NCBI RefSeq assembly: GCF_900155985.1 | Contig: NZ_FTMA01000004.1 | Coordinates: 186,001 to 250,000 of the forward strand | Reading direction: 5' to 3' | Source of the DNA: Maribacter ulvicola | GTDB lineage: Bacteria; Bacteroidota; Bacteroidia; Flavobacteriales; Flavobacteriaceae | Length of the DNA: 64,000 nucleotides | Notes under the pieces: generated by a model | The model's database searches: none | Seen by the model: only the letters and a program-made list of their open reading frames with translations | What the model was told of the DNA's origin: nothing | Made by a program: the position numbers and the translations under genes | Part shown: piece after piece, positions 15,791-52,910 of the stretch | Layout of the letters: every line of letters starts with the position of its first letter | Position numbering within the stretch: position 1 is the stretch's first letter

Positions 15791-15807
15791 GTGCAATTAC
15801 ACCGCAT
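15791..15807. promoter_or_regulatory. 17-bp operator-like palindrome GTGCR-N7-YGCAY (druHE copy)
   Basis: The sequence reads GTGCAATTACACCGCAT, just after the WYL stop codon and 123 bp before druH. It is one of six matches to GTGCR-N7-YGCAY, all upstream of transcription units in the defence block. This copy has CGCAT instead of TGCAC in the right half and lies farther from its gene than the others, so it is one of the weaker instances. Confidence 0.5.
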
Positions 15808-15855
15808 AGTTATTTTAGTTCTTTACATCAGATTTTTAAAATGAAACAGACTGCT

Positions 15856-15871
15856 TTACGGTAAACCGTAA
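15856..15871. promoter_or_regulatory. 16-bp palindrome TTACGG-N4-CCGTAA (druHE copy)
   Basis: TTACGGTAAACCGTAA is a near-perfect palindrome 58 bp before druH. The same half-sites with the same 4-bp centre occur at 52807-52822 between the second WYL gene and the divergent ATPase gene. Two copies, each in the control region next to a WYL gene, suggest a WYL operator. Confidence 0.6.
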
Positions 15872-15929
15872 TCAAATTATATTTTTCTAGGCTACTTTAA
15901 CTAATTATTAAACTTAACCAAAATAATCT

Positions 15930-18900
15930 ATGTCATTTTTTCAAACCCTAACGATATCAAAAAACAGTGATCAAGATAAAAAACAAGCTTTATGGAAATA
16001 TGAGATAAGTGATGAAGATTTAGATAGACTTATTTCTACTTTAAAATATGGGAAAATTTATAATATAGACCCTAAAGACGTTTGTTTATACTATGCTGTA
16101 TGGTGGAAAAGAAAGTATAATGGTGGTATACCTAGTAAGCAAGAAATATTTGAATCTATTGGGGGTAATCTTAAATATAACCTGACGAAGGAAGAGTTTT
16201 TTAAACTTGCTAAAATAGGTGCACGACAGCTAGGGGTTAAATGGATTAAAAAACAAAATACACTTTATTTTAAAACATTATTGTTGCAAGGCGGGTTGCC
16301 ATTAAAGCATATTGCTGAAAATAAAGGTGTTTATAAGGTTTTTTTGGAGGCAGTTTTAGAAGAGCAACCAGAGTCTATAGAAGATTTTATATTTAAAAAC
16401 CATATCATAGATTTATTACCTAAATCTAGTCAGAATGATACTATTTATGAAAATTGTTTTGAAATAGTAAGATCTATTCTGAATGATGATGGTGCATATG
16501 ATTCGTTATTTGAAAGTGAGGAGTCGTTGAAAGAGATTTCAACTGCTTTAAAAATTAAACGGAAATCTTTAGTCAAGAAGAAGAGACAATCTAAGCCTAA
16601 GAATTATTGGTTATTGAGTTTTAAAAATGATACGCCAAAAATTACACTAAGACTGGGTTTCGCAGATTCTTATTCAAAGGAAGCTTTAAGTGATATTTTA
16701 AGATTTGAACCTACCGATAGAAATTATCAATTCTTTATGGATGATAATTTAATATGTGTTTTTCGGAAAATGGCTAATGGTAAATATAAAACGGATTGGT
16801 ACAGCAATCAAAATGAAGAGAGAGATGTTTTAGAAGGTATCCCTTATACTTATGTCGTTGGAAATGAATTGAAAACTGAACTTCCTGAATTTATACAAAC
16901 TATACCCAATTTAGATGAACCCAGTTTATGGTCGAGGTTTAATGACAACGAATGGCGATTGGTAAAAGGGTATACTGTATCGAATAAAGATGCAGCTATA
17001 CTTTACCCAAATACTTGGAAATGCTTTTTACCTGCAACCAACATTTCTATTTACGATAAAATTCTTTCTTGGGTTTCATTTGAAGGTGAAGTTGAAATTC
17101 AGAGTGAGAATGAAGAAAACACCTATATAAGTGGTGTGGATTCATTTGATTGGATTATTGAAAGTAAGCGCCCAAGTTGGATGTTAAAATCAAATTTAAC
17201 CGTTACCCAGGGTCTTCCTAAAATTCTCTTATATGATGATTCTGGTTATGATATAAATAATTCTCGTTTTACAACTTTTATTAAAAGGCATAATAGTAAA
17301 GAACAATGGGAAAGTCTTAGTAGAATAAAAAACATTTCAAAAGGTTGTTATGATTTAAAAATAGAGAAAGATGGGGTAATTGCTCATGACACTTTCTTCA
17401 ATATTGGAAATTTAAAGGCTAGATTTTTGGAGCAAACTATTGATACTGCTGTAGTCGATTTCACTAATAATGATTTTTATGAAATGAAATTAAGTGAGAC
17501 AGATTTGGTCGAAATAGAGCAAACTGAAAATCGATATTCACTGAAAGTAAATAAAGAAAAGTTAAAAATACCTTCAATAATAAAAGGTTCTTTTGGACTT
17601 TCTAATAAAAAGAAATTGTTTTTCGATATGCGTTCTCCATTTCAAGGAATGGCTATCACTGATAGTGATGGCGGAATTATTGATGAGAACCAGCCTTTGT
17701 CTCTTGCTAATCTTTATGGACTTAGAATACTAAGTACTCCAAAAAGAGAAACCTTGTTAAAGCTTAAGAATAGCTTAAAACCAGATGTGAAGATTACAAA
17801 GGAAATCAAAGATTCAACACAGCCATTAATAGCTTATAAAGATGAAATTGTTAGGCTTTTATATTTAGCTGACGTCATGAATCATGAAAATACGGTTACT
17901 TTAGAATTGTCAGAAGGTAGCTATAGAAGGACTTATCGAATTTCGGGTTTTAGCCACACACTAGATGTTAGCAATCAATTAGAATACCGTGTAGATGTAT
18001 TTAACTCAAGTGATAAATTAGAATTATATGCTGTAGCTCTAAATTGTAATTCTGAAAAAATTACACCAATTTCTTTAACTAAAATAGAAAGTGGTTATGA
18101 AATCCCAACATCTATTGAGTCTAACGAATTAATAGTGTTCTCTTCTAAAATAGATGGTAAGCAATTGATGCCAAGATTTGTTAGAACTACTGAATTTTAC
18201 TCGGGTATTGATAAGGCAGAAAGAATTGAAAAATATCATACCAATCTCTCTTCAGCGGGCTTTAGCGATGAAATTTGGAAAGAAGTATTGTCTTATTTCA
18301 AAATCTGTATAGATTTTGATATCCCATTCTCAACCTTTGACCAATTAAGAGCAATTTCTAGAAGTTCAAATGTGGCGTCAAGGGCTTTTCTTTATTTGGG
18401 AATTAATCATCATGACCCCAATGAATATATCCAAAATGTTATTCCAGAGATGGAGAAAGATTTAGGTTTTTGCTTTCATTGGATTTCAAAAATAGATTGG
18501 GGTAATGCTATAGAAGAAGTTAATGAGCTTACTGGTAATAACTACTACAATCATATTCTAGAACTTCTTTCATCCTATTTAAGTTTAAATGGTCAGACGA
18601 AACTTTTTAAATTTATTAGCGGAGCCAAAATCGAGACTAACAGTATTTCCCAAAGAGATATATTAGATCTTCGTCAGCAATTAGGTGAAAGAGTTTTAAA
18701 AGAGCTTCCATATCACAGTCCTAAAATTAATAGTACTTATAGTGTTCAAATTGAACAGCATAAAGCAGTAAAAGTATTATTGAGATCACCAATTGCAGTT
18801 GCAGAATCAATTAACAATATTGAAAATGAGAACCCTATATGGGGAGGTGATGACTTTAGGGATGTAATTAGGAGAAACATCCAGTATAGCCAATATTTGA

Positions 18901-18950
18901 AACCAGATTTTTATAATAGTATCATTTTACATGTCCTTAACAGAAACTAA
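15930..18950 (+). CDS. druH: Druantia type III protein DruH (by context)
   Basis: This 1006-residue soluble protein has no domain that I can recognise by eye. It is called DruH because Druantia type III consists of two genes, a large protein of unknown fold followed directly by the DruE helicase, and both sizes and order match here. The last 20 bp overlap the annotated start of druE, which argues for translational coupling. Residues about 195-220 are rich in Lys and Arg ([18 protein letters not shown]), possibly a nucleic-acid contact. It is the first gene after the WYL regulator and the two palindromes. The mechanism of Druantia is not well understood. Confidence 0.7.
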
Positions 18951-21900
18951 ACCTATGAATTTCAAAGACTTTTATTCTAAAACTGAAAATAGATTAACCG
19001 ATGCAATTCTCTCGCTTTGGGCTACAGGAGATAAAGAAATGCAAGACTATTTTAGATTTTTACTTTCGCAAGAACCAATTATGGCAGACGCGGTTTTTCA
19101 AAATACTTTTCCGTGGGAACAAGGTAAAATTGAGTTTGGAGAATCTGCAGGAATATTTAATCAAGAGTTTGTAAATGCTTTAGACGCTATTAAAGACAAA
19201 GATTTTAGATTCCCAAAGGACAGAAAACCATACAAACATCAATTAGAAAGTTGGAAGATTCTTCTGGATAAAAAGAAATCGATTGCGGTTACTACCGGAA
19301 CAGGTTCTGGTAAAACGGAATGTTTTATGCTACCCGTTATACATGATATTCATGAGAACTGTAAAAATCAAGATGGAGTAAATGCTATTTTCTTGTATCC
19401 TTTAAATGCGTTGATAGCTAGTCAAAGAAAACGTATGCACGCTTGGTGCTCTGCTCTAGATGGAGTTAAGTATGCGCTGCTAACAGGTGATACACCAAAT
19501 AAAGAAAGTAGTAAGGATAAAAAACAAAAAGCGTTACCAGAATTAATTTCTAGAGAACAAATTAGAGCAACACCTCCTCAAGTTTTGTTCACAAACCCAA
19601 CAATGTTAGAGTATATGTTGGTTCGTAATGCAGATGTGCCAATAATAGAAAAATCTAAAGGAGCGTTAAGGTGGATATTATTAGATGAGGCCCATACTTT
19701 AACTGGTTCTAAAGCCGCTGAAATTGCCCTGCTAATAAGACGTGTTGTATCTGCATTTGAAGTGAATATAGAGGATGTAAGATTTGCAATTACCTCAGCT
19801 ACCGTAGGTAGTGGAAATACAGATTCTCTTAAAAAATTCATGTCAGATTTATGCGGAATTTCTAAAGATCAAATTGAGGTTATTACAGGTGAACGTGTAA
19901 ACAATCAAATTGTAGATCAAGATATACCTAGTTTGTCTCCTGTGTTATCTAAAAACAACATAAAACTTCTGAGACAAAAATTTTTAAATAGTAAAGCGAT
20001 TTCTCAAAGTGAAATAGGTAAAGATTTTAATGTTTCCAATAAGTTAGAACAGCTTGCAATAATTGATACTCTTTCAGAGCATAAGGTAAATAATGAAAAT
20101 TTACTTCCAGTTAGAGGGCATTTTTTTACGAGAGGAATAGGTGGTGTCTATGTTTGTACGAACAAAAAATGTGATAAACATAAGGGAGAAAAACCTAATA
20201 AAGCTATGGGTACCATGTATACTATCGCAGGTAAAAAATGTTCTTGTGGCCATCCTTTATTAGAACTTATTGCATGTAGAAGTTGTGGTAATATGATGAT
20301 GGAGGGAGAAAGAGTTAAAGGAGCAACTCCAAAATTAGATAGAATAAGACAAAAAGCATCTTTAGGTTATGAAGCATTTAGTGTAGAAAATGAGACTGAT
20401 AATGAAGACGAAGAAAAAAGAAATGATGAAATAAGAGATAATGGGTTAATTAGACTAATTAATAGAGATCAAATTAATCAAGATATTGATTTAACTCCCT
20501 GTGGTATTAACAATGATGATACTATTGATTATGGTAGTGAAGATTTTTTCATGACAGATGATACTCATTGTCCTCATTGTGGAAATCAAAATGAGTATCC
20601 AATTCATTTTAGAATTTCATCTGCATTTACCAATAGAATTCTTTCAGATATAGTATTGGATCAAACTGAAGTTGCAGAAAAGCAAACGACAAAAACTCTT
20701 TATAAAGGAAGAAAGTATATTTCATTTACTGACAGTAGACAAGGGACGGCAAAGATTTCAGCCTTAATTAATATTGATAGTGAAAGCGATTGGATTCGTT
20801 ATCAAGTATATCATTACCTCTTAAAAAAAGCCCATGCTAATAAGATTGATTCAAGTAGAAGTGAATTACTTTTAGAGAGAGCTAAATTGGTAATAGATCT
20901 TGAAAATACACTTCCATTTAGAAAGATAAGATTACAAGAAGATATTGATGCAATTGATGCCGCGTTGAAACAAAGCGGTAACTCATCAAATTTATTAGCT
21001 AGTAGATCTTCATGGAGAGAAATTGTTGATTTTATTAAAGAGAAAGAGGATTTTAAAACATTATTTAAAAAAGGAGCAAGAGGTAATAATTTAGCAATTG
21101 AGAATGAAGCATATGCTAAATCACTATTATATGACCAATTTGCAAGAAGAATACCAAGAGAGCGATCTTTAGAAAATCTTGGTTTAATAAATATCGTTTA
21201 TCCAAGTCTTGATAATCTTCAGGCACCTGATATAGCTGTAAAAATGGGGATTGATAATACGGAGTGGGTGGATCTTTTAAAGATTGCTATAGATTATATA
21301 ATTAGATATAATTTTAACATTTTCTTCGATGATGCGATGCGGGTATTTACCTCTAAGTTTTACCGTTCAGATTCAATCTATCCTTCAAATAATGAAATTG
21401 TTAATGCTACCAAGTGGAGATTATATAACCCTCAGTCCATTGCTCAATCTCGTTTGGTTTTATTGATTTGTGCAGGATTAGAATGGCATGATAGAGCTGA
21501 AATTAGTGAGGAAAGAGAAGACTTGCTAAATGAATTACTTGAAAAAATATGGAGAACACTACAGCAAAAGGTTTTAAAGGAAGACGGGACTGGTTTTAAG
21601 CTTGATTTTTTTGAGAGCACCAATTTTGAGATAGCAGGTAAAGAGTTTTTATGTCCGGTAACGAATAGATTAATAGATAAAGTATTTAGAGGTTATTCCC
21701 CGTTGATTAAAGGTAATTTAGAGTCAAATAATATTGATAACTATAAAATAGATGAGTCTAAGAATTATGAGTTTCCAGTTTATTCTAATCCGTTTCATAG
21801 AAATGAAGAAAACGATACAATTACATATGAAGAAGTAAGTCTATGGTTAGAAAATAATAGTCAAGGGGCTAGAGAGAAAGGACTTTGGAATAACCTGCAC

Positions 21901-24870
21901 GAACGAATTTTTGATTATTCTAAATTATATTTAGCAGGTGAGCACTCAGCTCAGCAAGACAAGAGAAGGCTTAAAGAATTAGAAGAGCAATTTGAGAATG
22001 GAGAAATAAATGTTCTAAGTTGTTCTACTACCATGGAGATGGGTGTAGATATCGGCGGTATCTCAGCTGTTGTAATGAGTAATGTTCCGCCTATGCCAGC
22101 AAATTATCTTCAAAGAACTGGTAGAGCAGGGCGTCGTTCCGAGAATAAATCTCTGGCTTTAACATTTTGCGCTCCAAACCCTATTGGTCTGCGTACTATG
22201 AATAATCCAAAGTGGGCGCTAGAGCATAAAATAGCTTCACCAATTCTTGCTTTTGATAGTAAAAACATAGTTGAGAGACATGTAAATTCATTATTGTTCG
22301 GCTTTTTTGTTAGGTCTCAGCAAAATACCAATAGAGGTTTAAACGTAAAAGAGAATATTGAGAAGTTTTATTATGAAGATACACCAAGCATAGCTGAAAG
22401 TTTTCTCAATTGGTTAGATGGAGATGAAGTTTTACAGTATAAAAAGGAGCTTAGTTATATTGTTAAAGACACGCAATTATCAGAAGCAAGTTCAGAAGAA
22501 TTAATTTCAACTGTTAAGGATAATTTTAACCGAACTATAATTAAAATTAGAAGTCAAAAAGAAGGCTTCGAAAAGAAACTTTCAGAATTAAAAAAGGAGT
22601 TTGGAGATTCTAGTCCTGCTTATAAAGCGATAGGGTACAGAAAAGGTCAATTCTTACAGAAATTCGTACTTAATTATCTAGCAGAAGAGAACTTTTTACC
22701 AAATGCAGGTTTGCCAACAGGCATAGTTGATTTCGAAAAAATCACCTTATCAGATTTGCAGAAGAGTAAAAGCAAATTTAAATCCAATCCAAGTTATACC
22801 ATTTCTAGAGCTCTTACAGAGTTTGCTCCGGGTAATAATATTCTTATTGATGGGCTTAATTATAAGTCTTCAGGAATTGTGATGAAAAACAATTGGGGGC
22901 AAGCTACAGAAAGAAATGTTATACAAGGTTGCCGAAGCTGTGGATACCAACGCACAGTTGATTTAGAAGAGAAAGTAGGGGATAACTGTCCAGAATGTAA
23001 CGCGGTTAATTCTTTTAATGGTTTAGATTTAGGGGAAGACAGAAAGTCATATACTGAGTTAGTTGAACCTGCAGGATTTTCTATTGATTTATTCAGTACT
23101 CCAACAAGAGTTATTTCTGAAAAAAGTAAACCTCAATATTTAGAACCTCTATTGTTGAATATTAAGCCTTGGGCTAAAGATCAGAATCAATTCATTGATT
23201 TTAGAACTAGTTCAAGTGAAACGGAAACCCAAGTACTATTTTATAATACAGGAGAAGGCGAGGGGTATAGCTTGTGTCTAGATTGTGGAAGGGTCGAGAT
23301 GTCTACGGAACGTTTAGAAGATCATAAACGTTTGAGAGGAGGAAAAGATAACAATGGTGAAAGCTTATGCTCTGCACAAAATATACGAGAGCATATAATT
23401 TTAGGAAGTAGATTTAATACTGATTTTACTGAAATACGCCTAAAAAATAAAAATCAATCATTCGTTAATGATAAAATGCTAGCATATTCATTAGGGGTGA
23501 TTTTTAGTAAGTCTCTTGCTGAGTATTTGGCTGTAGAAGAATCTGAATTAGGTTTTGGTATTAAACAATACAAAGGTTATCAAACCATATTTATATATGA
23601 TACAGCAAAAGGTGGTGCCGGCTACGCATCGCAATTCAGGTTGTATGCAGAAAAAATATTGAATCTTGCATTGCAAGTTTTAGATAATTGTGATTGCCAA
23701 AATGCATGTACTAAATGCATGATAGATAGAAGTACACAATGGCATATTGAAGATTTGGATCGTCATTTGGCTATTGATTGGTTGCGTGCTGCACTAGAAA
23801 ATCAACTTCCTAAAGATTTAGATACACCTAATAATGATGTTAGTTTGGTCTTTGGTTCTATGCATGATGAACTTAAAAGACTTAATTATCATTACGGTAT
23901 TAAATCAATTAATATTCATGTTAACAATACAATTTCCGAATGGGACATTGAAAGTTTAAAATGGTTAGAGGAATTAAAGAGAGAAAGAATAGTTGTCAAC
24001 TTAATAGTTGAAGGTAAAATTAGATACTCAAACAATCAAGAGAAAATCTCAGTACACTTATTATCTTATAATTTTAATCTAAAGCAAGGTATAGGTAATA
24101 AGCTTAAAAACTACGCGATTCATGCATCTGTAATTTTGCAAAATAACAAGTGTGTTGGTTATATTTCTAATGAAGGCTATGATAGCTTAAGTCCAGAATG
24201 GTCTGTAGATCTTAAAGAAAAGATTTATAAAGTTGAAAATTTCATATCGTTGGATCATGCTGGTTATGTAGTGCCAAACTTTTCAACCAGTAATTTATAT
24301 GAATCTAGAATTAAGGGAAATCTACCTAGAAACAGCCAAAGTAATGATGTAGCGTTGTTAATGTCTGAAAATCTTTCAAATTTTAAAGAAATGTTGTCAA
24401 AGGTAAGTGGTAAGAAATACCAGGTTTCTTATTTCGATAAGTATAATCAGTCCGAGTTTTCGTTACGCCTAATTTTACAGTTTATAAATCAAATCAGAGA
24501 AATCTGGTCAATAGAGGTTTCTCAGTTCAATGTGCATTTATCTAAAGCAGATTTTAAAAGCTTCAACTATCCAGAGTATATAATCCACAATTATAAAGAA
24601 CTTGATGATTACGTATATGATCTTAAGGAGCTTTCTGCAAATTTTGATTTTGCTATCGATTTTAAAGAAGAGCGACGATTACCTCACTATCGTTATTTTG
24701 AGTTTAAATCAGAAGAAACATCATTTAGTATTAGAATAGATGCTGGTATCGCTCACGGTTTAAAACCAATAGATAGGTTGACATCAAATGATATGAAAAT
24801 GGATAATCAGGTGTTTGAGATAAGAAAAGATGTAAGTCATGATATCATTTATAACATTAGTATAGATTAA
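18931..24870 (+). CDS. druE: Druantia DruE: large SF2 helicase with DUF1998 C-terminus
   Basis: This 1979-residue protein has the length and layout of DruE. The helicase core shows Walker [13 protein letters not shown] (about residue 125), the DEAH box ILLDEAHTL (about 252), SATVGSG, then [14 protein letters not shown] (about 1031) and [11 protein letters not shown] (about 1064) in the C-terminal RecA lobe. Zinc-binding cysteine clusters occur at about 405-455 and 1332-1355. The DUF1998/MrfA-like end has [15 protein letters not shown] (about 1555) and [11 protein letters not shown] (about 1590). A more conservative start is the ATG at 18955 (MNFKDFY), 4 bp after the druH stop. In Druantia the helicase is essential for anti-phage activity. 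Confidence 0.85.
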
Positions 24871-24886
24871 TGCAGCTGGTTATAGA

Positions 24887-24903
24887 GTGCGGTTATTTTG
24901 CAC
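24887..24903. promoter_or_regulatory. 17-bp operator-like palindrome GTGCR-N7-YGCAY (accessory gene copy)
   Basis: GTGCGGTTATTTTGCAC lies 46 bp before the ATG at 24950 and directly upstream of a good -7 box. The position relative to the start is almost the same as for the copies at 52894 (45 bp) and 51633 (50 bp). This supports a role in controlling this promoter. Confidence 0.6.
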
Positions 24904-24949: not shown

Positions 24950-25987
24950 ATGAATTACCCATTAAATATTCTTCATCCTCAAGAATTAGAAGTTCTTTAT
25001 AAAATGTTTAATCTTCAGAAGAAAGAGGATAAGAAACAACGTTTAGAACTAAAATTATCAAAACTTCTTTTACCAGCTAAAGGACTTTTTCAAAAGGGTA
25101 TGGATTATCCTGAGTTTTTAAATAAAATAGCCGAGAAGAATAAGATTAAGTTCTTAAAGACTGATTCTATTTACGAAAAAGAGTCCACTCTATTTGTAAA
25201 GTTGTTTTCTAATAATTTCAACAATTTATCTGAAACTGAAAAAAAGCATTTTCTTAACGAACTTCAAGCTAAGGGGCTAACTAAAGATCAGGTTGCTTCT
25301 ATAACAGCATTATCTACTATCGGTGCTGCTCAATTATCAGGTTTTGGTGTGTATTTGTTAGCATCTTCAACTGTAGGTGCTCTAAGTTCAGCGCTTGGGG
25401 TGGCACTGCCTTTTGCTTTTTATACGGGTATGTCAAAAGTAATTAGTATTGCTATAGGTCCGGTTGGTTTGCTACTAGCGGCTTACCCAATTTATAGGTC
25501 CTATAAGGGAGTTAATTCTTGGGATGATTTTAAAAATCGTTCTAATGATCATTATTCACTTCTTCTTAAAGAGGGTGGTTCTCTAGTACATGGTAATTAT
25601 GAACATGCTGAAACTGTTTTTAATTACTGGGCTGGACTTAGAATAATGAAAATTCATGAAAAAGAAATAGAGATATCCAAGAATGAAAAGAGTATTGAGG
25701 AATTAACTAACAAGAAGGCAAAGGTATCTCTAGAAAAAATAGACATAGATTTAAAGATTGGCACATTTGATGAAAAAATCACATCAGAAGAGCATGAAGT
25801 TTTATTCTTGAAAAGAAAAATTAGTGAACATGAGAATAAAATTGAGGCTTTAAAAAAAGAAAAATCTGGAGTAAGAGGTAAGCAAATGACACTGGATAAT
25901 TATATAGCTAAGATGAAAGATGAAATACGTGAAAAAGAGTCAGAGATTCCATTACTAATATTAAAGATTGATGAATTAAAGAAATAA
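24950..25987 (+). CDS. Membrane-associated coiled-coil protein, YaaW-like
   Basis: This 345-residue protein has a charged N-terminal third, then a Gly/Ala-rich hydrophobic region (about residues 118-185, for example ALPFAFYTGMSKVISIAIGP) that could insert in a membrane. A long coiled coil fills the C-terminus (about 230-345, rich in Glu and Lys). The order of an N-terminal helical part followed by the Gly/Ala-rich segment recalls YaaW/DUF3944-type proteins, a weak resemblance judged by eye. It has its own promoter and palindrome and is followed after 5 bp by a small gene. As a membrane protein beside Druantia it could be an accessory effector; that is inference. Confidence 0.6.
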   Translation: MNYPLNILHPQELEVLYKMFNLQKKEDKKQRLELKLSKLLLPAKGLFQKGMDYPEFLNKIAEKNKIKFLKTDSIYEKESTLFVKLFSNNFNNLSETEKKHFLNELQAKGLTKDQVASITALSTIGAAQLSGFGVYLLASSTVGALSSALGVALPFAFYTGMSKVISIAIGPVGLLLAAYPIYRSYKGVNSWDDFKNRSNDHYSLLLKEGGSLVHGNYEHAETVFNYWAGLRIMKIHEKEIEISKNEKSIEELTNKKAKVSLEKIDIDLKIGTFDEKITSEEHEVLFLKRKISEHENKIEALKKEKSGVRGKQMTLDNYIAKMKDEIREKESEIPLLILKIDELKK

Positions 25988-25992
25988 AGCAT

Positions 25993-30260: not shown

Positions 30261-30280
30261 GCTTGTCTCTTAATAAATTA

Positions 30281-30308
30281 TTCCCTTATTCCCTTATTCC
30301 CTTATTCC
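30281..30308. repeat. Tandem 8-bp repeat (TTCCCTTA, 3.5 copies)
   Basis: TTCCCTTA repeats three times plus four bases. It begins in the last codons of the HEPN-like gene and runs into the gap before the helicase gene. Because the stop codon falls in the first unit read, copy-number change would leave the upstream protein intact but alter the spacing to the helicase start. Confidence 0.7.
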
Positions 30309-34713: not shown

Positions 34714-34724
34714 AAGTCCTTATT

Positions 34725-35882: not shown

Positions 35883-35894
35883 TATTAAATTAAT

Positions 35895-36179: not shown

Positions 36180-36198
36180 GCAAATATTACTATTATGT

Positions 36199-36215
36199 GT
36201 GCAATATATATGCAC
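36199..36215. promoter_or_regulatory. 17-bp operator-like palindrome GTGCR-N7-YGCAY (retron copy)
   Basis: GTGCAATATATATGCAC has perfect half-sites and lies 20 bp upstream of the a1 arm, overlapping where the -33 element of the ncRNA/RT promoter should be. It is the most symmetrical of the six copies. Confidence 0.62.
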
Positions 36216-44404: not shown

Positions 44405-44408
44405 TTGC

Positions 44409-45728
44409 TTACAATATTTTATGAGGCTCCGCAGCCATATTCATTTCTTCTACTTCCAAACCCTCTACAGACAACTTACCACTTATTAATCGTGGTAATA
44501 ATAAATCTCTGGTTTCTTGAAGGATTTGATTTTTCTTTAAAAGAAGAATTATTTCATCAAAAAATGATTTAGTTATATCTGAAAACTTTTCTAGTAATTC
44601 ATCTGGTGGAGTGATAAATTTTAATTCTGAAGTATCAACTGGACTTAAGTTTTGTTGTGCAGCTCCGTTAGAGTAATTTTCTAATGTCTTTCTTAAGAAA
44701 TCACTTCTAAAGAATAAATACACATACTCAAACAAGTCTTCAGTTTTAGGTTTCAATTTTGCAACACGCTGATTTAATAAATAATTATCTCCGTAAACCA
44801 AACAAATTCTACCAATGTTCCCAGTAAGTGAAAGCAAAATATCTTTGTCCTTTAAAAAAATATCATCCTTTATATTTTTAGGTAACTCTTTAATATAATC
44901 TGTAGTTTTAGTCACAAAAAAACCGTTCTGAACATTTTTAATCGTCACTAAGCCATAATCTCCATCTTCTTCAAAAGATTCAGTTTTAAAAGCATAACCT
45001 GAAATAATATCTACAATATCTTTAATTGGTTTCTTCTCCCACCCCTCAGGAATAGCACCTTTCGTACCGTGAGCAACTTTCTTACCTTCTTTATCTAAAA
45101 AGGTAGCGTCTTTATAGCCAGGAAAACGAAAACGTACAAACCACTCTTTGTAGATTTCTTCAGCCATTTCTTCTAGTAGCTTGATGCGTTGGTTGTTGTT
45201 TTCTATTAAATCATCATAAGCAGAAAGGATAGAGGCTATTTTTTTTTGGGTTGGTAATTCAGGTACAGGTATTTTAATGTTTTTTAAAATATCTTGATTC
45301 AAATTATTAATATTTGCTCCGTTACCAAATTGAGAAAGTAAAGCTCTAAATAATGGACTTTTAAAAACATATAAATAAAAAAACGAGTCAATTTTTATAT
45401 CTTCTTTAAATCGCAACCTTATACAAAAAGCGGAATAAGTCACTTTTACATCATTTGGTAAGTTCTTTATATAAATAGACCTCCCAATAAGATTTTTATT
45501 ACCATTTGAACGTACAAATACTATATCACCTTTTTTTAAAAATGATTCTTCGTGCCATTTTGAGGCAGCATCAAGCTCTCCTAAAAGTGAGTAGTCAGGA
45601 TACATTCTATCTTTAAAATCAGAAACATTGATAACTTTTATTCCTTCTCCAAAAGAAGAGTTGTCAAAATTTACTCCATTTCTAAATTCTGCAATATTAC
45701 CTAATGGAATTGTTTTCCAATTAACCAT
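44409..45728 (-). CDS. hsdS: Type I restriction specificity subunit S
   Basis: This 439-residue HsdS protein has two target-recognition domains. The first begins WKTIPLGNIAEFRNGVNF and ends in the central conserved helix region IKIPVPELPTQKKIASILSAYDDLIENN (key residues P, Q, I, L, Y, D, N; about 150-175). The second begins GWEKKPIKDIVDIISGYAF. It sets the bipartite DNA sequence that the enzyme methylates and restricts. It overlaps hsdM by 8 bp. The target sequence cannot be read from the protein by eye. Confidence 0.92.
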   Translation of the reverse strand: MVNWKTIPLGNIAEFRNGVNFDNSSFGEGIKVINVSDFKDRMYPDYSLLGELDAASKWHEESFLKKGDIVFVRSNGNKNLIGRSIYIKNLPNDVKVTYSAFCIRLRFKEDIKIDSFFYLYVFKSPLFRALLSQFGNGANINNLNQDILKNIKIPVPELPTQKKIASILSAYDDLIENNNQRIKLLEEMAEEIYKEWFVRFRFPGYKDATFLDKEGKKVAHGTKGAIPEGWEKKPIKDIVDIISGYAFKTESFEEDGDYGLVTIKNVQNGFFVTKTTDYIKELPKNIKDDIFLKDKDILLSLTGNIGRICLVYGDNYLLNQRVAKLKPKTEDLFEYVYLFFRSDFLRKTLENYSNGAAQQNLSPVDTSELKFITPPDELLEKFSDITKSFFDEIILLLKKNQILQETRDLLLPRLISGKLSVEGLEVEEMNMAAEPHKIL

Positions 45729-47844
45729 TGATTATATGATTTAAAGAATTAGCAATACTTGTAAACCTTTCTTCTTGAGACTTAGATAAGCTTTCCAAAA
45801 GTCTTTTATTATTGGTCAACTTCTTAATGAATTCTTCTTTTGTAATATTATCATCTTCAATCTCAACTCCAACATAACGACCTGCATTTAAAGAATAATC
45901 TTGTTCTTCAACATATTCGGTTCTATCAGCCATTTTACATAAACCAACAATGTCTTCATATTTTGCATCAGGAAAACGTGATTGTAACCAATTAATGTTA
46001 GTCACCCAATACGCAGCTTTCTCCGTAGCTTCTATATATAATTGTAATGCTTCTTCTAGGTTTTTATCGGCTTTTACTAAATCGTAATTACTCCAAACCT
46101 TATCTGTTTTAAGTTTCAGGTTTTTATCGGCTATTTTATACAGTTCTAAAAGTGCATTAACATCTTGTTTTAAGGCATCAGTATCTAATTTATGCTGCGT
46201 AACATGCCATTGTAAATGTGCTGCTACTTCCAATTGCGCTTCGTTATCCAATGGCGTGTTCTCTATTGGGTGTGCTAAGTTGTTTAAAACAGTTTCGTTT
46301 GTTATAGGTTTTGTTATTTTGAAACCCTGTACTAGATTTAAGAAATCAGTTTCTTTTAGCGCTTTTATTTTTGCTGGTGTGCGTTTGCTGTCTTTTGTTT
46401 CTTCAATGTGCTTTTTCAAACTATTTACCACCTTCTCAAGTTGTAAGACTAACGTTTCTTTTGCTGGTGCTATTTTATTTTCAGCTTGGTCTGCTGCTTT
46501 TATATAAGTTTCAATTAACTGTAAATAGCGGTTAGTTTCACCACGATATAAACGGACAATAGCAGCTAAATTTTGTTGATTTTCTGGTGTCCATTCTCTA
46601 TGTGCTCTGTCTATTTGGTTATATACATTACGCGCATCTAAAAACAATATTTTGTCTTTGCGCTCTGTATGCACTTTTTGCTTATCAAAAAACCATAAAG
46701 TAGCAGGTAAAGTCACCGTTAAAAACATATTGGTTGGCATACTTACCATACAATCTACAATACCAGAATCTACGATGTTTTTACGAATGTCGTATTCAGA
46801 ATGTCTAGCATCACTTGCAGAGTTAGGCATAACAAAACCTGCACGTCCGTTTTTATTTAAAGAGGTAGCAAAGAGTGAAATCCATAAATAATTGGCATCG
46901 GATATTTTATCGCTTTTCCCTTTACTTTTAGGTAAGCCAAACTCATAAAAACGTTTATCATTTTTTACAGTACTCTCTTTTACAGACTTCACATTAAATG
47001 GAGGGTTAGCCATGACAAAGTCGAACTTTTCATAGCCGTCATAAGGGTCGCTATCGTAAGAGTTAGCTTCAGTAATTTCGCCACGTAAATTGTGAACTAA
47101 TAAGTTCATTTTCGCCAAACGCACGGTTTCGCCCATATATTCTTGTCCGTAAACGTAAATATCGTTTAGGTCGTGACCTTCGTGTGCTATGAAATCGGCA
47201 GATTGTACAAACATCCCACCAGAACCACAAGCGGGATCGTAAATTTTACCTTTGTAAGGTTCTATAACTTCAACAATAAAACGTACTACAGACGTTGGTG
47301 TAAAGAACTCGCCTCCTTTTTGTCCTTCGCTCATGGCAAACTTGCCTAAGAAGTATTCATATATCTTACCAAATATATCGCCAGAAGCATTTTTAGGAAT
47401 GTCTGAGAATGATTTTAGTAGTTCCGGTAGAATATCATCCTTCTTCTTTTCGATATCAAAATAAGCCTCTGTAGGCAATACATCTTGAAATTTAGCATCT
47501 TGGTAATTTTCAATGCCTTTCATAGCATCTCGCAAAGCTTCTGCTCTTTTGTTTCCTTTTAGATTTAAAAGATAATCATACCTAGCATCATCTGGCAAGT
47601 AGAAACCACACTTGGCTAATGCAATTTCTTGCATAGTACGTTCCATTCTAGTGCCTTTATCCTTTTGATATTCTTTTAGAATTTCAGGTTCGTGCTGGCT
47701 GTATTTATTCTCGGCAAACTTTAAGAAGATTAACCCTAATACTGGTACAGCATAATCAGATGCTTTTAATCCGCCATGTGCACGCATTGCATTTGCAGAG
47801 TCCCAGAGTTTGTTTTCTAAATCTTTTAATTGATCGTTGGTCAT
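45721..47844 (-). CDS. hsdM: Type I DNA methyltransferase subunit M
   Basis: This 707-residue HsdM protein has an N-terminal helical domain (LENKLWDSANAMRAHGGLKASDY), a SAM-binding motif YDPACGSGGMFVQ (about residue 200) and the intact catalytic motif FVMANPPFN (about 275). It transfers methyl to adenine N6 as part of M2S. The C-terminal 250 residues are longer than in the E. coli enzyme and partly coiled coil. Its intact NPPF contrasts with HPPF in the related protein two genes upstream, so this is the modification enzyme proper. It begins 3 bp after the receiver-protein gene. Confidence 0.93.
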   Translation of the reverse strand: MTNDQLKDLENKLWDSANAMRAHGGLKASDYAVPVLGLIFLKFAENKYSQHEPEILKEYQKDKGTRMERTMQEIALAKCGFYLPDDARYDYLLNLKGNKRAEALRDAMKGIENYQDAKFQDVLPTEAYFDIEKKKDDILPELLKSFSDIPKNASGDIFGKIYEYFLGKFAMSEGQKGGEFFTPTSVVRFIVEVIEPYKGKIYDPACGSGGMFVQSADFIAHEGHDLNDIYVYGQEYMGETVRLAKMNLLVHNLRGEITEANSYDSDPYDGYEKFDFVMANPPFNVKSVKESTVKNDKRFYEFGLPKSKGKSDKISDANYLWISLFATSLNKNGRAGFVMPNSASDARHSEYDIRKNIVDSGIVDCMVSMPTNMFLTVTLPATLWFFDKQKVHTERKDKILFLDARNVYNQIDRAHREWTPENQQNLAAIVRLYRGETNRYLQLIETYIKAADQAENKIAPAKETLVLQLEKVVNSLKKHIEETKDSKRTPAKIKALKETDFLNLVQGFKITKPITNETVLNNLAHPIENTPLDNEAQLEVAAHLQWHVTQHKLDTDALKQDVNALLELYKIADKNLKLKTDKVWSNYDLVKADKNLEEALQLYIEATEKAAYWVTNINWLQSRFPDAKYEDIVGLCKMADRTEYVEEQDYSLNAGRYVGVEIEDDNITKEEFIKKLTNNKRLLESLSKSQEERFTSIANSLNHIING

Positions 47845-47847
47845 ATG

Positions 47848-49014
47848 CTATTCTATGAGTTTTTTAACTCGTTTTCTTAGTTCTTGTGTTCTATTGTCTG
47901 TGTATTCTTCTATTTCTGCAGTAATTATAGCTGTTTCTTTTAAACTATGATTGGTTACTAAATGAGGTGGAATGAACACATTTTCGGTTCCATCTTCTGG
48001 TTCTAGAAAAGCAAATCCCTTAAAAGCATGAAAATTAATTACTTCTCCTTTTTTGATATTACTTATTGTTTCCTCTTTCGTATAATTAATTTTAAACCAA
48101 TTCTCTTTTTTTGGATTACTATCAACATGTAATTTAAACCAAACTATAACATCTAACAATTGGTATAGTATACTTTGAAAAAGATAAGGGGTATTTAATG
48201 ATTTAGTATGTAAATCTATTTTAGACCTATGAGATCCATCTTGTGTGGCGGATAAAATATTCCATAACATAGTAGAGATTTGTACAGGTATATGCGTTTC
48301 TTCATTATGTTGATATCCTCTTTCGGTAAATAATTCTCCCTTATGATTTTTGCCAGATAAAAACTTACTGGTTTCATTTATTGCAATTGAAGGTGTTATA
48401 AATTCATTTGGTAATAATTGAAACTTGTTAAATGCAATAAAAATATCTTCAACTATTTTTCTTATTGTATTGAATTGATTTTCAGTATTAAAATGACTTA
48501 TGTTTAAAAACAAGCTCAATAAGTCTATGCTTGCATTTTCTCCAATATACTTTTCAGTACATACTTCAAAAACCCGTTGATATTTATGTCGAATTTGAGT
48601 ATCGGGTTGTTTACTTGCTTCTTCCTTAATTGCTAAAAATAATGCTGCATTATCCTTACTCTTCATAAAGATGGTTTCATCTGCCAACATTTCTCTTGCG
48701 CTAGCATGCTCATCCTGGTCTATATACCCTGAAAAAATAAAATAGGGTATTTTTTTTCTGTCAGATAAACTATTAATTCTTTTTATAGAATTAAATAACC
48801 CAGTTAATGCTGCATTTTCATCTTCTGATTCATTAAATACCATTGCATCTAAAATAACTGCATCATAGTGTTCAATTTTGTCAACCAACTCTTCCATGCC
48901 TTTCTTGGACGTTTTGTAATAATTTACATCTAATCCTTCTAGATAGGCAGAATCTAGAAAACCATCTTGCTTTTCGGCATCATCATCAATCCATAGTACT
49001 TGATATCTATTCAT
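47848..49014 (-). CDS. Response-regulator-like protein with cold-shock-like C-terminal domain
   Basis: This 388-residue protein has an intact receiver domain: YQVLWIDDDAEKQ (acidic pair near residue 10), YDAVILDAMVFNE (phospho-acceptor Asp about 56), YFIFSGYID (Ser about 98) and IFMKSKD (Lys about 122). A helical middle (about 140-310) has no clear match. The C-terminus has NFHAFKGFAFLEPEDGTENVFI (described by F, KGFAF, EPEDG, VFI; about 325-346), very like the RNP1-bearing strands of cold-shock domains, which bind single-stranded nucleic acid. It is 3 bp from both neighbours, directly after the kinase-bearing methyltransferase-like protein, which is the obvious phosphodonor. A two-component pair inside a type I restriction operon is unusual. 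Confidence 0.78.
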   Translation of the reverse strand: MNRYQVLWIDDDAEKQDGFLDSAYLEGLDVNYYKTSKKGMEELVDKIEHYDAVILDAMVFNESEDENAALTGLFNSIKRINSLSDRKKIPYFIFSGYIDQDEHASAREMLADETIFMKSKDNAALFLAIKEEASKQPDTQIRHKYQRVFEVCTEKYIGENASIDLLSLFLNISHFNTENQFNTIRKIVEDIFIAFNKFQLLPNEFITPSIAINETSKFLSGKNHKGELFTERGYQHNEETHIPVQISTMLWNILSATQDGSHRSKIDLHTKSLNTPYLFQSILYQLLDVIVWFKLHVDSNPKKENWFKINYTKEETISNIKKGEVINFHAFKGFAFLEPEDGTENVFIPPHLVTNHSLKETAIITAEIEEYTDNRTQELRKRVKKLIE

Positions 49015-49017
49015 AAC

Positions 49018-51582
49018 TTAAAGCGTTTCCAGATTAAATTTAAAATTATAACCAACAGGGAAATCTGCTGTGGGTTCATCGAATACGGACATTATGGCTC
49101 CAAAGTGTTTTGCAATTTCTGATACTTTCCAAAGCCCTATACCTGTACCTGCTGTGATACCCGCTTTTTCTCCTTTAACATCAAATTTCTGGGCAATTCC
49201 TTTAGGAAATGGCTTTCCGTTATTCTCGAAGTTAATTTCTAAAAAATCATCAATGAAGGCAATGGTGATTCTTAAAATGTATTTCTTATTATCATCAACG
49301 AAACCATGATTAATAGAGTTCTCTAAAATATTATTATAAATTTCTTCGAAATCATTTTTAGAAATACTTATGAGTGGTTCTCTGCCCTCAAAAGAGGTTT
49401 TTTCAATAATAACCTCTACTGTAAATGATTCATTCTGAATACCACGTTCTTTACATTCTTTAATAAATTTTGCAGGGTTTATTATTTCAGCCACGTCATA
49501 CTTTAACTCATTGGTAATATTATCTACATAATAAATTACCTTACTTAAACTTTCTTGCAAACGGTGAAAACGTTTTTCTACCGTAACCCCCCTTCTAGGG
49601 TCTATAATCTCATCAGACTTTAAAATGCCATTGTTAAGCTTCATCATTTTAGTTAAAACATCTGCGGATGCTTTTACATTATTTAGATGTTGCATGATGT
49701 TATGTTTTTTAGAGCCCAAATCTTTCATTTGAGCTAGCTTAAGTTTCGCTATCTCTTTTTCAAAACCTAAATCTTTTGCTGCCGATTGAAAACGTACTTC
49801 ACGTTCTTTTTCAATAATTTCTTTTTGTTCTTTAAGAGATGGTGGAATTGAAATAAGAATTTTCAAAAGATCTTTGCGACTAATAGTTCGCATTACAGAA
49901 CCCATACTATATCTTTCTAATTCGGCCTTAATATAGTCCTTGTGTAGTTCAGCAACTAAATAGTCCATATCCACTCTGTTTTCATCTACTTTAAAAGAAT
50001 ATATAGCATTTACGGAATAGGCAACTTTCTCAGTATTTGAAGAATAGAATGTTGGCTTAAGGTTCGTGCTTAATTTAGAAAGTAAAAGCACATCATTCTG
50101 TAATATACTATAATTAGGACTTTTACCTACTTCAGATAGGTTATCAGTTTTAAGTATATATGAATCAGGATTAGAGGACAGATCTTTTATACTAACCTTC
50201 TTAATATTATCCTTTAACTTGGATTTTGTTGGGGAAACATATGTTAATATTTCACCAAGTGAAACAATATTTCCTGGTTCGTGATCTAGTTTTACTGTAG
50301 ATAGATAATCAAGATTTAAGTATCGTTGAGGTGTTAGAATATAGTCGTTTTCAGCGATTCTCTTTATATCGACAGAATTGGAAAACCCTATACTACTTAT
50401 TTGAGTTTCACCTACTTTCCATTTCGTATAGTGGGTAACGATTTTTTGAATACTATCTTCATTTAATTCACGCTGTCCTTTATTAATCATTTTACCTAGA
50501 TCAGAGGCATCAATTAATATTACCTTTTTATTGAGAGGTTTTTTTTTACTAAAAATCCAAATACTTGAGGGGATACTGGTATTTGCCAAAAGCCGAGAAG
50601 GAAGAGTAATGATTGCCTCTACTAAATCAGCTTCAATTAAATTCTTTCTTATTTCGCCATCTTTGCCCCCTCTAAATAATGTACCCACATTGAGTAGTAA
50701 GGTCGCTTTACCCTCATTGTTTAAGTGGGATAAAGCATGTTGAATCCATGCAAAATCTGCATTTGATTTTGGTGGTAGACCAAATTCAAATCTTGGGTCA
50801 GAGGAATTTAATTCGTTTCCCCTTAGTCGTACATTAAATGGAGGATGCATTATAACAAAATCAGCTTTTAAATTAGGGAAGCTGTCATTAATTAAAGTGT
50901 TGGCTGAATCTCCAAATTGAAATATATTTTTTTCGTTAAAGGCAAAACGCAGTTTAGCAATAGCTAATGTTGATGAGTTATACTCTTGTCCATAAAACTG
51001 AAACTGATTTTCGGAATAGTTTTCTTCTATACTAGAGAAATAACCTCCTATGCCGCAAGTAGAATCTAATACAGTTCCTCCTTTAGGTTCTAACAATTTT
51101 GTCATTAGTTTAGAAACAGAATGCGGTGTTGTAAAATCGCCTCCCTTTTTGCCTTCGTAATTTGCGAAATTAGCGAGCAACTTTTCAAGAATATCTGAAA
51201 AGCTTAATTCAATCTTTTGAAAATCAATTTTTGAAAAAGTAATAAATAAATGATAGAGAAATTCCAGTTGCTGTAAGTGATTTCGATTAGAATTAAAATT
51301 AAAGTTACATACAGTGTTACGGATTTGGGAGTTGGCATTTTCTAATAAAAAAAAAGCCTTATTTAATTCATCTTGTAAATAGGGGGAGCCTACCGTTGAA
51401 TATAAATAGGCCCATCTTGCATTCTCTGGTATCTCTATGACATTATATTCTTTAGGTTTATAGTTGTCATTTGCATACTTTAAAAATAGCAGAGAAATGA
51501 ACATTTCTTTCATGCCTTCAATATCTCTATATCCTTTAACGCTATTTAAAATATCTTTAAGCCTATTATCCAATTCACTCAT
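49018..51582 (-). CDS. HsdM-like protein fused to specificity-like region and histidine-kinase ATPase
   Basis: This 854-residue protein has three regions. Residues 1-400 are HsdM-like, with VLDSTCGIGGYFSS (SAM motif, about 174) but FVIMHPPFNVR (about 245), where the catalytic Asn of NPPF is His, so methylation is doubtful. Residues about 420-590 look like one specificity-type target-recognition domain (ILTPQRYLNLDYLS, then RTISRKDLLKILISIPP and KEQKEII). The C-terminus is kinase-like: a possible dimerisation helix KKHNIMQHLNNVKAS (about 625-640), N box NILENSINHGF (about 754), and GITAGTGIGLWKVSEIAKHFG (key GTGIGLW, about 815). It could recognise DNA or its methylation state and signal to the receiver protein encoded next. 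Domain calls are firm; the signalling role is inference. Confidence 0.8.
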   Translation of the reverse strand: MSELDNRLKDILNSVKGYRDIEGMKEMFISLLFLKYANDNYKPKEYNVIEIPENARWAYLYSTVGSPYLQDELNKAFFLLENANSQIRNTVCNFNFNSNRNHLQQLEFLYHLFITFSKIDFQKIELSFSDILEKLLANFANYEGKKGGDFTTPHSVSKLMTKLLEPKGGTVLDSTCGIGGYFSSIEENYSENQFQFYGQEYNSSTLAIAKLRFAFNEKNIFQFGDSANTLINDSFPNLKADFVIMHPPFNVRLRGNELNSSDPRFEFGLPPKSNADFAWIQHALSHLNNEGKATLLLNVGTLFRGGKDGEIRKNLIEADLVEAIITLPSRLLANTSIPSSIWIFSKKKPLNKKVILIDASDLGKMINKGQRELNEDSIQKIVTHYTKWKVGETQISSIGFSNSVDIKRIAENDYILTPQRYLNLDYLSTVKLDHEPGNIVSLGEILTYVSPTKSKLKDNIKKVSIKDLSSNPDSYILKTDNLSEVGKSPNYSILQNDVLLLSKLSTNLKPTFYSSNTEKVAYSVNAIYSFKVDENRVDMDYLVAELHKDYIKAELERYSMGSVMRTISRKDLLKILISIPPSLKEQKEIIEKEREVRFQSAAKDLGFEKEIAKLKLAQMKDLGSKKHNIMQHLNNVKASADVLTKMMKLNNGILKSDEIIDPRRGVTVEKRFHRLQESLSKVIYYVDNITNELKYDVAEIINPAKFIKECKERGIQNESFTVEVIIEKTSFEGREPLISISKNDFEEIYNNILENSINHGFVDDNKKYILRITIAFIDDFLEINFENNGKPFPKGIAQKFDVKGEKAGITAGTGIGLWKVSEIAKHFGAIMSVFDEPTADFPVGYNFKFNLETL

Positions 51583-51632: not shown

Positions 51633-51649
51633 GTGCAGTCTTTCTGCAT
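51633..51649. promoter_or_regulatory. 17-bp operator-like palindrome GTGCR-N7-YGCAY (restriction operon copy)
   Basis: GTGCAGTCTTTCTGCAT lies in the 66-bp gap between the WYL gene and the kinase-bearing HsdM-like gene, 50 bp before the latter's start codon, and touches the WYL stop codon. A -7-like box (GATATTTG on the minus strand) lies between it and the gene. The restriction operon could thus be controlled apart from the WYL gene. Confidence 0.58.
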
Positions 51650-52650
51650 TAATTATAAAAGGATATGTTTTTAAGTAATCGTTGTTTAATCGATTCTTGG
51701 AAATGATTGGGGGAGATAACTATCATTTCTTCCCCAAAAGAAAGAATAAGTTTTTCCAATTCAAAGTTGGGAACTACTTCAATTGAAATATAAACATAAT
51801 GATTGTCTGAAAGCTTTTTCTTTTGCGAACCGTGCAAGGGTTTAGTTTCTATATAAGGCCATAATTTTTTTGTAATTTTTAATTCAATAATTTCTGGGTT
51901 ACCATCATTTAAGGTAACGCCTACAACATCTTCAAAATACTCTTCAAAATCAATCTCAGTTTCTACATAAGACATATCAACTTCATGAATTTCGTTAATT
52001 CTATCTAATGGATAATTAGTTAGTGTCTTATAATCTGGGTTACGACCAAAAAGGAACCATCGAGAATTAAACTGTTTAAGGTGGTATGGAAAAATAATAG
52101 AGCTAAACTCATCTTTACCAAAAGGTTGATAGGTGATTTCTAAGCTTTTTTTATGATTTATGGCATTAAAAATGGGGTCTAAAAATTCTAAGCCTTTAAG
52201 AAATGGGTTGTTTTCAAAAGACATGATATGATTTTCTTTATCTTTTAAAAGAAAGGTCTGGTCTAGTTTTGGAAGTAATTCGTTTACCCACTCAAATTGA
52301 GGCATACCCTTAAACCGTGTCAAAACCATCATTGCAGACTTTAACTGTTCAGCCTCTAATTCATTAATAGGGTTCTTAGTGATAGAGAAAGAGGTGTCTA
52401 TATACTTATAAAAAGTTCTTCTACCTTCTTTGGTCTTTTCTAATTCTATTGAATATCCTTGGTTAGACTCCATGAATCTAATATCTTCATAAAGCTGCCT
52501 TTTTTTTATACCGGTAGCATCGGTATTATATTCGAAAAGAGCATCATTACAAATTTCCAATAATGCATTAATATCATAACGACGACCAGGGTTGGCAAAG
52601 CACTTGTCAAGTGCTTGGTATCTAATAAGGGCATTTTTATTTATAGGCAC
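51649..52650 (-). CDS. WYL-domain transcriptional regulator (upstream of restriction operon)
   Basis: This 333-residue protein starts with GTG. It has an N-terminal winged-helix region (GIKKRQLYEDIRFME, about 46-60) and a WYL domain with LEITYQPFGKDEFSSIIFPYHLKQFNSRWFLFGRN (key residues Y, PYHL, F, RWFLFG; about 170-205), followed by a C-terminal extension. It resembles the WYL protein before druH. It is transcribed toward the restriction operon and divergently from the SF2 ATPase gene. A palindrome at 52682 lies 31 bp upstream of its start, as expected for autoregulation. It is my first candidate for the factor that binds the six GTGCR-N7-YGCAY sites. Confidence 0.85.
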   Translation of the reverse strand: MPINKNALIRYQALDKCFANPGRRYDINALLEICNDALFEYNTDATGIKKRQLYEDIRFMESNQGYSIELEKTKEGRRTFYKYIDTSFSITKNPINELEAEQLKSAMMVLTRFKGMPQFEWVNELLPKLDQTFLLKDKENHIMSFENNPFLKGLEFLDPIFNAINHKKSLEITYQPFGKDEFSSIIFPYHLKQFNSRWFLFGRNPDYKTLTNYPLDRINEIHEVDMSYVETEIDFEEYFEDVVGVTLNDGNPEIIELKITKKLWPYIETKPLHGSQKKKLSDNHYVYISIEVVPNFELEKLILSFGEEMIVISPNHFQESIKQRLLKNISFYN

Positions 52651-52681
52651 ATTAGCTATTTTAAACTAAATTAAAAATTAT

Positions 52682-52698
52682 GTGCAGAATACCCGCAC
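52682..52698. promoter_or_regulatory. 17-bp operator-like palindrome GTGCR-N7-YGCAY (WYL copy)
   Basis: GTGCAGAATACCCGCAC lies 31 bp upstream of the WYL GTG start on the minus-strand side of the divergent control region. It shares the extra bases TGTGCAGA with the copy at 52894 on the other side. Confidence 0.6.
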
Positions 52699-52806
52699 AT
52701 ATAAGTTTATGTTTTAAAAATAAATTTTTAGAGTGATATCATTTTATGAATCAAATGCTTTAGGATAACGAGTTTATGCAATTTAGATGGTTTTAATTGA
52801 TTCACT

Positions 52807-52822
52807 TTACGGTTTTCCGTAA
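52807..52822. promoter_or_regulatory. 16-bp palindrome TTACGG-N4-CCGTAA (divergent region copy)
   Basis: TTACGGTTTTCCGTAA is centred in the 305-bp gap between the divergent WYL and ATPase genes. It is nearly symmetric over a further 3 bp on each side (CAC and GTG). The same palindrome occurs before druH at 15856. Beyond this and the two 17-bp motifs, the gap shows nothing else. Confidence 0.6.
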
Positions 52823-52893
52823 GTGCTCTTTAATATTATTTGTCAGGGAGAACTCAAATGAATTTATTGGTTTTTTAAATTGAGAGATTATTT

Positions 52894-52910
52894 GTGCAGA
52901 TTGGGTGCAC
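52894..52910. promoter_or_regulatory. 17-bp operator-like palindrome GTGCR-N7-YGCAY (ATPase gene copy)
   Basis: GTGCAGATTGGGTGCAC has perfect half-sites and lies 45 bp before the ATPase start codon. A -7-like box TAGTTTTA follows at about 52921. Confidence 0.62.

Follow-up and report, generated by a model that had tools for sequence, protein, structure and literature searches.

Regulators with a WYL domain that act at promoters are known for defence genes and for the DNA-damage response, and they are the closest described counterparts of the system analysed here. It comprises a 17-bp palindrome, RTGCR-N7-YGCAY, with half-sites 7 bp apart, and the genes of two WYL proteins, designated WYL1 and WYL2, in a block of defence genes of Maribacter ulvicola (Flavobacteriaceae, Bacteroidota). 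The block is located in a 64-kb stretch of the contig NZ_FTMA01000004.1 (positions 186,001 to 250,000), hereafter the window.

According to the cited parts of the respective papers, BrxR of Escherichia fergusonii is a repressor, the tested box of which lies just downstream of the promoter (PMC9122601). Similar to the WYL proteins of the window, BrxR (E. fergusonii pEFER; Acinetobacter) is a protein of the winged helix-turn-helix, WYL and WCX type located by defence genes, with inverted repeats in two boxes of one island, but the repeats are of 11 bp with a 5-bp spacer. The published BrxR family includes 338 of 347 members from Proteobacteria and none from Bacteroidota. CapW, a WYL homodimer binding a palindrome in the promoter of a defence system (CBASS, the cyclic oligonucleotide-based antiphage signalling system), also represses; its site overlaps the -10 element and serves one CBASS operon and capW (PMC9122588). 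DriD of Caulobacter, a WYL activator of DNA-damage genes, occupies both sides of the -35 element at a single distance from -10 (PMC12340889); its pseudo-palindrome is centred on -35 in several promoters, the -10 boxes of which are poor. PafBC of mycobacteria is likewise a WYL activator, inserted between promoter DNA and sigma domain 4 (PMC11804915), but it is a heterodimer with a -26 motif, belonging to the DNA-damage response. RptR, from an island of enteropathogenic E. coli, is kept together with a short palindrome and type I restriction systems; it is described in the cited part of the source as a small single-domain repressor of one promoter, with 6-bp palindromes over -10 (PMC12255303). 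RptR is the nearest case found of a regulator and site conserved with type I restriction, although both protein and site differ from those of the window. In the open-licence literature, no report was found of the present operator, of a WYL defence regulon in Bacteroidota, or of a WYL protein serving Druantia.

Palindrome copies in the window and beside WYL genes

The palindrome is represented in the window by 10 strand-matches, corresponding to six places, where 0.19 strand-matches were expected and none of 100 shuffles reached 10. All six copies lie between genes, the copy at 51633 sharing one base, the last, with the stop codon of WYL2. For all six, the coordinates and 7-bp spacer given in the initial annotation were reproduced, as were the distances to the start codon of 46 bp (24887), 50 bp (51633), 31 bp (52682) and 45 bp (52894); for the druH copy (15791), this distance is 122 bp. 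The assertion that the palindrome precedes every transcription unit of the block holds for the units of these six copies and fails for the WYL1 gene (14784), upstream of which there is no copy.

The host genome (4.51 Mb) contains 15 palindrome places, six in the window and nine elsewhere. The latter are all inside called open reading frames (ORFs), and none of the nine has the Bacteroidota -7 promoter box (TAnnTTTG, at least 5/6 bases) at 10 bp. Intergenic copies thus account for 6/6 in the block versus 0/9 in the rest of the genome (Fisher p = 0.0002), and the enrichment that the initial annotation had proposed to check was found, the only intergenic palindromes of the genome being the six of this block. 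In a shuffle restricted to intergenic DNA at 14000-55000, from which the sixth copy (51633) was left out owing to its one-base overlap with the WYL2 stop codon, the mean was 0.003 and the maximum 1 over 20,000 rounds, against five observed.

Homologues of WYL2 were taken from 198 related genomes (53 matching, 30 loci taken) and from a wider contig search (51 loci), and those of WYL1 from 296 genomes of the phylum (92 matching, 30 loci taken). The tree was inferred from these listed loci (30 + 30 + 51) after removal of the duplicates L051 and L052, the window's own copies and proteins shorter than 280 amino acids; the near-duplicates L068 and L098 were each counted. Among the 101 distinct WYL homologues, a clade of 63 (support 100/100) holds WYL1 and WYL2, and its sister clade includes 38. 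The exact palindrome was found beside the WYL gene, that is, within 200 bp upstream of its start or downstream of its stop, allowing an overlap of some tens of bp with the gene itself, in 45/63 members of the WYL2 clade versus 0/38 of the sister clade. Eight control patterns, four of different letters and four with the spacer changed to 5, 6, 8 or 9 bp, matched 0-1 of the 101 homologues each. A -7 box at 10 bp accompanies the palindrome in 41 of the 45 members, and among the 18 members lacking an exact site eight have a one-mismatch site with the box, giving 53/63 in total; beside sister-clade WYL genes, no one-mismatch site with the box was found (0/38). Tolerance of two mismatches was rejected as useless, 11/38 sister-clade genes then matching. 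Chance or compositional bias as the origin of the palindrome was also rejected, based on the window shuffles, the control patterns in the tree and the intergenic shuffle.

Seven plasmid loci (7 of 24 matching records) and four viral contigs were fetched once motif and distance had been fixed. The exact palindrome with the box at 10 bp was found in eight of these 11 loci, while L240 carries one-mismatch sites only. Accordingly, the search for the motif beside the WYL genes of relatives, which had also been proposed, gave a positive result in the clade and in these further loci.

The clades also differ in the recognition helix: residue 52 is Q in 58/63 clade members versus T in 37/38 of the sister clade, and residue 54 is Y or F in 53/63 versus Q in 37/38. 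WYL1 has T and R at these positions, as do L103 and L067, both with standard sites. The closest relatives of WYL2 from named species among the 51 loci listed are those of Maribacter arcticus (81% identity) and M. huludaoensis (78%). Membership of WYL2 in the palindrome-carrying clade supports the initial proposal of the protein at 51649-52650 as the first candidate binder.

Position of the palindrome relative to the promoter

A selected set of 51 loci (731 kb) contains 98 palindrome sites, 91 of which were classed as intergenic, a lenient class that takes in sites within short ORFs or close to either end of a called ORF; seven coding sites were left out of the geometry count. These loci were picked for a clade WYL gene, nearly all with a site already seen, so the figure of 50/51 loci with a site is not a rate. 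The 10-bp offset was first noticed by eye in the sites of the window and afterwards counted across all 91, TAnnTTTG being scored at every distance of 4-17 bp past the palindrome in both directions. A box with at least five of the six bases begins exactly 10 bp past the palindrome in 77/91 sites, including 30 perfect ones, while any other offset in this range gave a box in 1-6 of the 91 sites each. Without the window sites the count is 73/85; the window sites 24887, 36199, 51633 and 52894 are among the 77. A perfect box at the 10-bp offset also accompanies two of the seven coding-class sites.

The flavobacterial -7 box is described as covering -12 to -5 (cited part of PMC9723704), which places the palindrome at -39 to -23 (centre, -31), so that it straddles the -33 region. 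A -33 element, TTTG, is reported for Bacteroides fragilis but, according to the cited part of PMC7366714, was not seen in F. johnsoniae; in the present sites it occupies no fixed position (3/70 at most at any one position). When oriented by the box, the core of the palindrome is directional, with the consensus GTGCAGATAGACTGCAC; A is found at position 11 in 61 of the 70 unique oriented sites (p = 1e-12 against the mirror position).

Among the oriented sites with a called downstream gene, 53/62 point toward that gene and nine away from it. Eight of the nine sit before WYL genes, and their box may serve the gene on the opposite side. In sites upstream of WYL genes, 11/26 palindromes end 5-18 bp short of the WYL start codon, and nine of these 11 have the box at 10 bp directed away from WYL. 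Arrays of palindromes were observed in two loci: three copies about 260 bp apart, with no long gene called behind them (L147, 4903-5439), and four copies about 110 bp apart inside a called ORF of 281 amino acids (L060, 2689-3040).

A strict composite pattern, consisting of the palindrome, 10 bp and a perfect TAnnTTTG, was scanned in 395 genomes of the phylum and was weakly informative, with 16 matches in 15 genomes versus six control-pattern matches. Six of the 16 belong to the window or to WYL loci, including one that lies about 15 kb away from the WYL gene concerned.

Proposed regulon, direction of control and alternative explanations

The palindrome is probably the operator of WYL2-type regulators, and the units behind it probably form one regulon, as was initially proposed; the confinement of intergenic copies to the block, the association with the WYL clade and the common operator-promoter cassette before the units argue for this. 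A WYL2 dimer would occupy both GTGCA half-sites, whose 12-bp distance is close to one helical turn, at approximately -39 to -23 of sigma-A promoters, with TAnnTTTG exactly 10 bp downstream. One such cassette would drive the type I restriction, JukA-like, reverse-transcriptase and 588-amino-acid protein units, and a less regular form of it WYL2 itself and druHE. We infer that the WYL domain senses a signal of infection, with single-stranded DNA or nucleotides as candidate ligands, the former by analogy with DriD and PafBC, upon which the units would change expression together.

Several observations weigh against this interpretation or against parts of it. Fourteen of the 91 sites have no good box at offset 10, including the window sites 15791 and 52682; 10/63 clade members lack both an exact site and a one-mismatch site with the box, and two of the 11 later loci, L245 and L241, contain no site. 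Across 22 clade-member genomes, the bare palindrome is only about twice as frequent genome-wide as the control (344 versus 185 strand-matches among the matches listed), so that copies not located at a WYL gene are for the most part background. The AlphaFold model of WYL2 is weak overall (predicted local distance difference test, pLDDT, 77.6; predicted template modelling score, pTM, 0.40). With respect to activation in particular, the cited part of PMC9122601 places a second, putative BrxR box upstream of the brxA promoter, and Acinetobacter BrxR is described as binding upstream of its own start site (cited part of PMC9122589); repressors of this fold are thus not confined to -10. Good -7 boxes and sites 5-18 bp before some WYL starts would also suit a repressor. 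In three genomes the bare pattern was unusually frequent, with 41, 27 and 20 strand-matches versus seven, six and three for the control (G365, G179 and G454, respectively).

Activation by WYL2, as by DriD, has close to an even chance in our estimate and is slightly favoured over repression, a lean narrowed by the published BrxR boxes, some of which lie elsewhere than at or downstream of -10. The geometry is that of DriD, with the palindrome centre at -35/-33 and a constant spacing to the -10/-7 box, but the -7 boxes are good, unlike the -10 boxes of DriD promoters, and would suit promoters working without help. Alternatively, WYL2 may bind the same operator and repress, obstructing RNA polymerase at the -33 region until a ligand releases it during infection, in the manner of BrxR and CapW, a possibility that we rate somewhat below even. 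Both of these WYL regulators of defence operons repress, the -7 boxes are near consensus, and binding at the 11 palindromes close to WYL start codons would block WYL transcription; yet the box is fixed at 10 bp more tightly than repression would seem to require, and the nine of these 11 sites with boxes facing away from WYL may serve a divergent gene. The position is also unlike that of CapW, over -10, and that of the tested BrxR box, since the palindrome ends 10 bp upstream of the -7 box in 77/91 sites; other published BrxR boxes lie elsewhere, so the mismatch does not exclude kinship with BrxR. In the window, the palindrome precedes six units. The WYL2 model supports the domain order only: helices 5-18, 27-41 and 50-61 followed by strands 70-75 and 78-83 form an N-terminal winged helix-turn-helix of moderate confidence. 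Foldseek ranked PafBC and DriD first, with BrxR and CapW behind, but TM-scores to known structures are at most 0.44, and about 0.37 for full-length chains, so that with a weak model the ranking says little. The profile match to the BrxR structure 7qfz is weak (E=0.0038) and covers profile positions 154-245 only; PafBC and DriD score better.

A division of the sites between the two regulators, with druHE under WYL1 and the other units under WYL2, is conceivable but rather doubtful. The site at 15791 is atypical and directly behind WYL1, and the recognition helix of WYL1 differs; however, L103 and L067 share its RTLR helix and carry standard sites, so the half-site of WYL1 may be the same. The druHE unit may be governed by WYL1, by both WYL proteins or by a second palindrome, TTACGG-N4-CCGTAA. 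The latter, present in the same intergenic stretches, behaves as a genus-wide host site, which would fit a host-wide regulator reading RTGCR-N7-YGCAY, with the WYL genes as bystanders. Such a regulator is improbable for RTGCR-N7-YGCAY and was rejected for it, because the nine other genomic copies are all inside genes and the presence of the palindrome tracks the WYL clade, plasmids and viral contigs included; the second palindrome does look like the site of one. Type I restriction targets are bipartite. The palindrome is bipartite too, but its role as a restriction target, or as a recombination site, is highly improbable, given its fixed distance to promoter boxes before genes of many systems.

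The second palindrome occurs in the window at 15856-15871 and 52807-52822, adjoining two operator sites of the first. The host genome contains nine sites of TTACGG-N4-CCGTAA, eight intergenic and one in a possibly spurious ORF of 63 amino acids. One site precedes a 1414-amino-acid HNH protein (Pfam: HNH_4 only), which looks like Cas9, and another precedes a protein with a weak PLD-like match. The sequence is present in 31 of 36 searched genomes of the genus and in four of 24 others, and it is also found before WYL2 in two relatives (L150 and L151). This distribution and the place before WYL2 suggest a genus-wide host regulator also touching defence genes.

Genes of the defence block and of related loci

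The features of the window are listed in the table.

Table. Palindrome sites, WYL genes and units of the defence block (positions in the window)
Feature	Position	Strand	Remarks
Palindrome between WYL1 and druH	15791..15807	+	Atypical, lacking a good -7 box at the 10-bp offset
Palindrome 5' of JukA-like gene pair	24887..24903	+	Perfect -7 box TAAATTTG at 24914-24921
Palindrome 5' of reverse-transcriptase operon	36199..36215	-	-7-like box 36188-36181
Palindrome at WYL2 stop codon, 5' of type I restriction operon	51633..51649	-	-7-like box 51622-51615
Palindrome 5' of WYL2	52682..52698	-	-7-like box 8 bp downstream, not 10
Palindrome 5' of 588-amino-acid protein gene	52894..52910	+	-7-like box TAGTTTTA at 52921-52928
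WYL1, diverged clade member	14784..15788	+	Branch length 2.92; RTLR in the recognition helix instead of the RQ of most members
WYL2, regulator, best candidate binder	51649..52650	-	WYL PF13280 E=9.6e-12; WCX PF25583 E=4.2e-5
Druantia type III, druH and druE	15930..24870	+	DruH3 E=7.7e-45, DruE3 E=0
JukA-like gene and partner without PADLOC match	24950..26448	+	PADLOC JukA E=1.1e-17
Reverse-transcriptase operon: reverse transcriptase (retron-type), HisKin-conflict, iREC/receiver, PDC-M16A and PDC-M16B proteins	26624..35912	-	Profile searches
Type I restriction operon: N6-methyltransferase/HATPase fusion, 388-amino-acid partner, HsdM, HsdS (by position), TmtA-like, HsdR	36266..51582	-	Profile searches
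588-amino-acid protein gene under own operator	52956..54722	+	No Pfam or PADLOC match; candidate defence gene

Two initial gene labels were revised: the gene at 24950, named YaaW-like, matches the PADLOC family JukA (E = 1.1e-17), and the name SF2 ATPase for the 588-amino-acid protein found no confirmation in Pfam and PADLOC searches, which gave no match. The -7-like box ending at 36181 makes it plausible that the retron-type transcript starts near 36176; the only Rfam match in the window was a tRNA. The HisKin-conflict gene (695 amino acids) contains three tandem 60-bp repeats (34178-34357). The first gene of the type I operon (49018-51582) encodes an N6-methyltransferase fused to HATPase_c, a histidine-kinase-type ATPase, and relatives of this fusion, of 803-939 amino acids, come after many clade WYL genes. 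A relaxase gene, an integrase gene and tRNA-Met are located at 57168-59889, and their adjacency makes a mobilisable element integrated there likely.

Counting the window, 15 of the 50 site-bearing loci have the palindrome, by position, before at least two different non-WYL genes. Downstream genes were grouped through BLAST links, and only group representatives were named by profile searches. Among them are a group of 26 type I methyltransferase-like entries, one of nine AAA_15 ATPase entries (one gene counted for two sites), three reverse transcriptases, three PDC-M16A helicases and single examples that include BrxA, viperin and HsdR. Druantia genes come directly after a clade-type WYL gene in three loci: L134 and L138, where the sites have one mismatch and the -7 boxes are perfect, and the Chryseobacterium plasmid L242 (WYL identity 42%), with an exact palindrome. 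In L247 and L248, the box points to divergent operons encoding, among others, E1-E2/JAB proteins like those of CBASS or related systems. Seven of ten downstream genes in one profiled set have no defence link: six are without a Pfam match, and that of L091 encodes Ig-like domains.

The operator was rejected as a general trait of this reverse transcriptase family. Among 29 related loci (L209-L237, the window's own excluded, about 1.5 kb on each side; 72 of 385 genomes matching), the exact motif was found only in L210 and L211, both adjoining clade WYL genes, while L214 and L233 have a one-mismatch site with the box. Relatives of the JukA-like gene were found in 1/295 genomes of the class and those of HisKin-conflict in 2/295, the window's own counted, which is too rare for a test of portability.

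The regulation of defence islands is poorly known, and BrxR and CapW are both from Proteobacteria, each serving one or two island promoters. The sequence comparisons presented here suggest that one protein family switches many defences together. More tentatively, and with chances that we put below even, there may be an operator code across Bacteroidota, in which one WYL clade and one cassette (RTGCR-N7-YGCAY, 10 bp, TAnnTTTG) are mixed with genes of Druantia, type I restriction, reverse transcriptases, AAA ATPases, bacteriophage exclusion (BREX), viperin and CBASS-like systems; any defence system landing near a clade member with the operator would be wired at once into a common infection-activated regulon via a DriD-like sigma contact. 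A fixed-geometry operator would predict co-regulated defence genes from sequence across the phylum and would flag uncharacterised genes under it, such as the 588-amino-acid protein gene and those of DUF2130 proteins, as defence candidates, and the joint deployment of unrelated defence systems would become directly testable.

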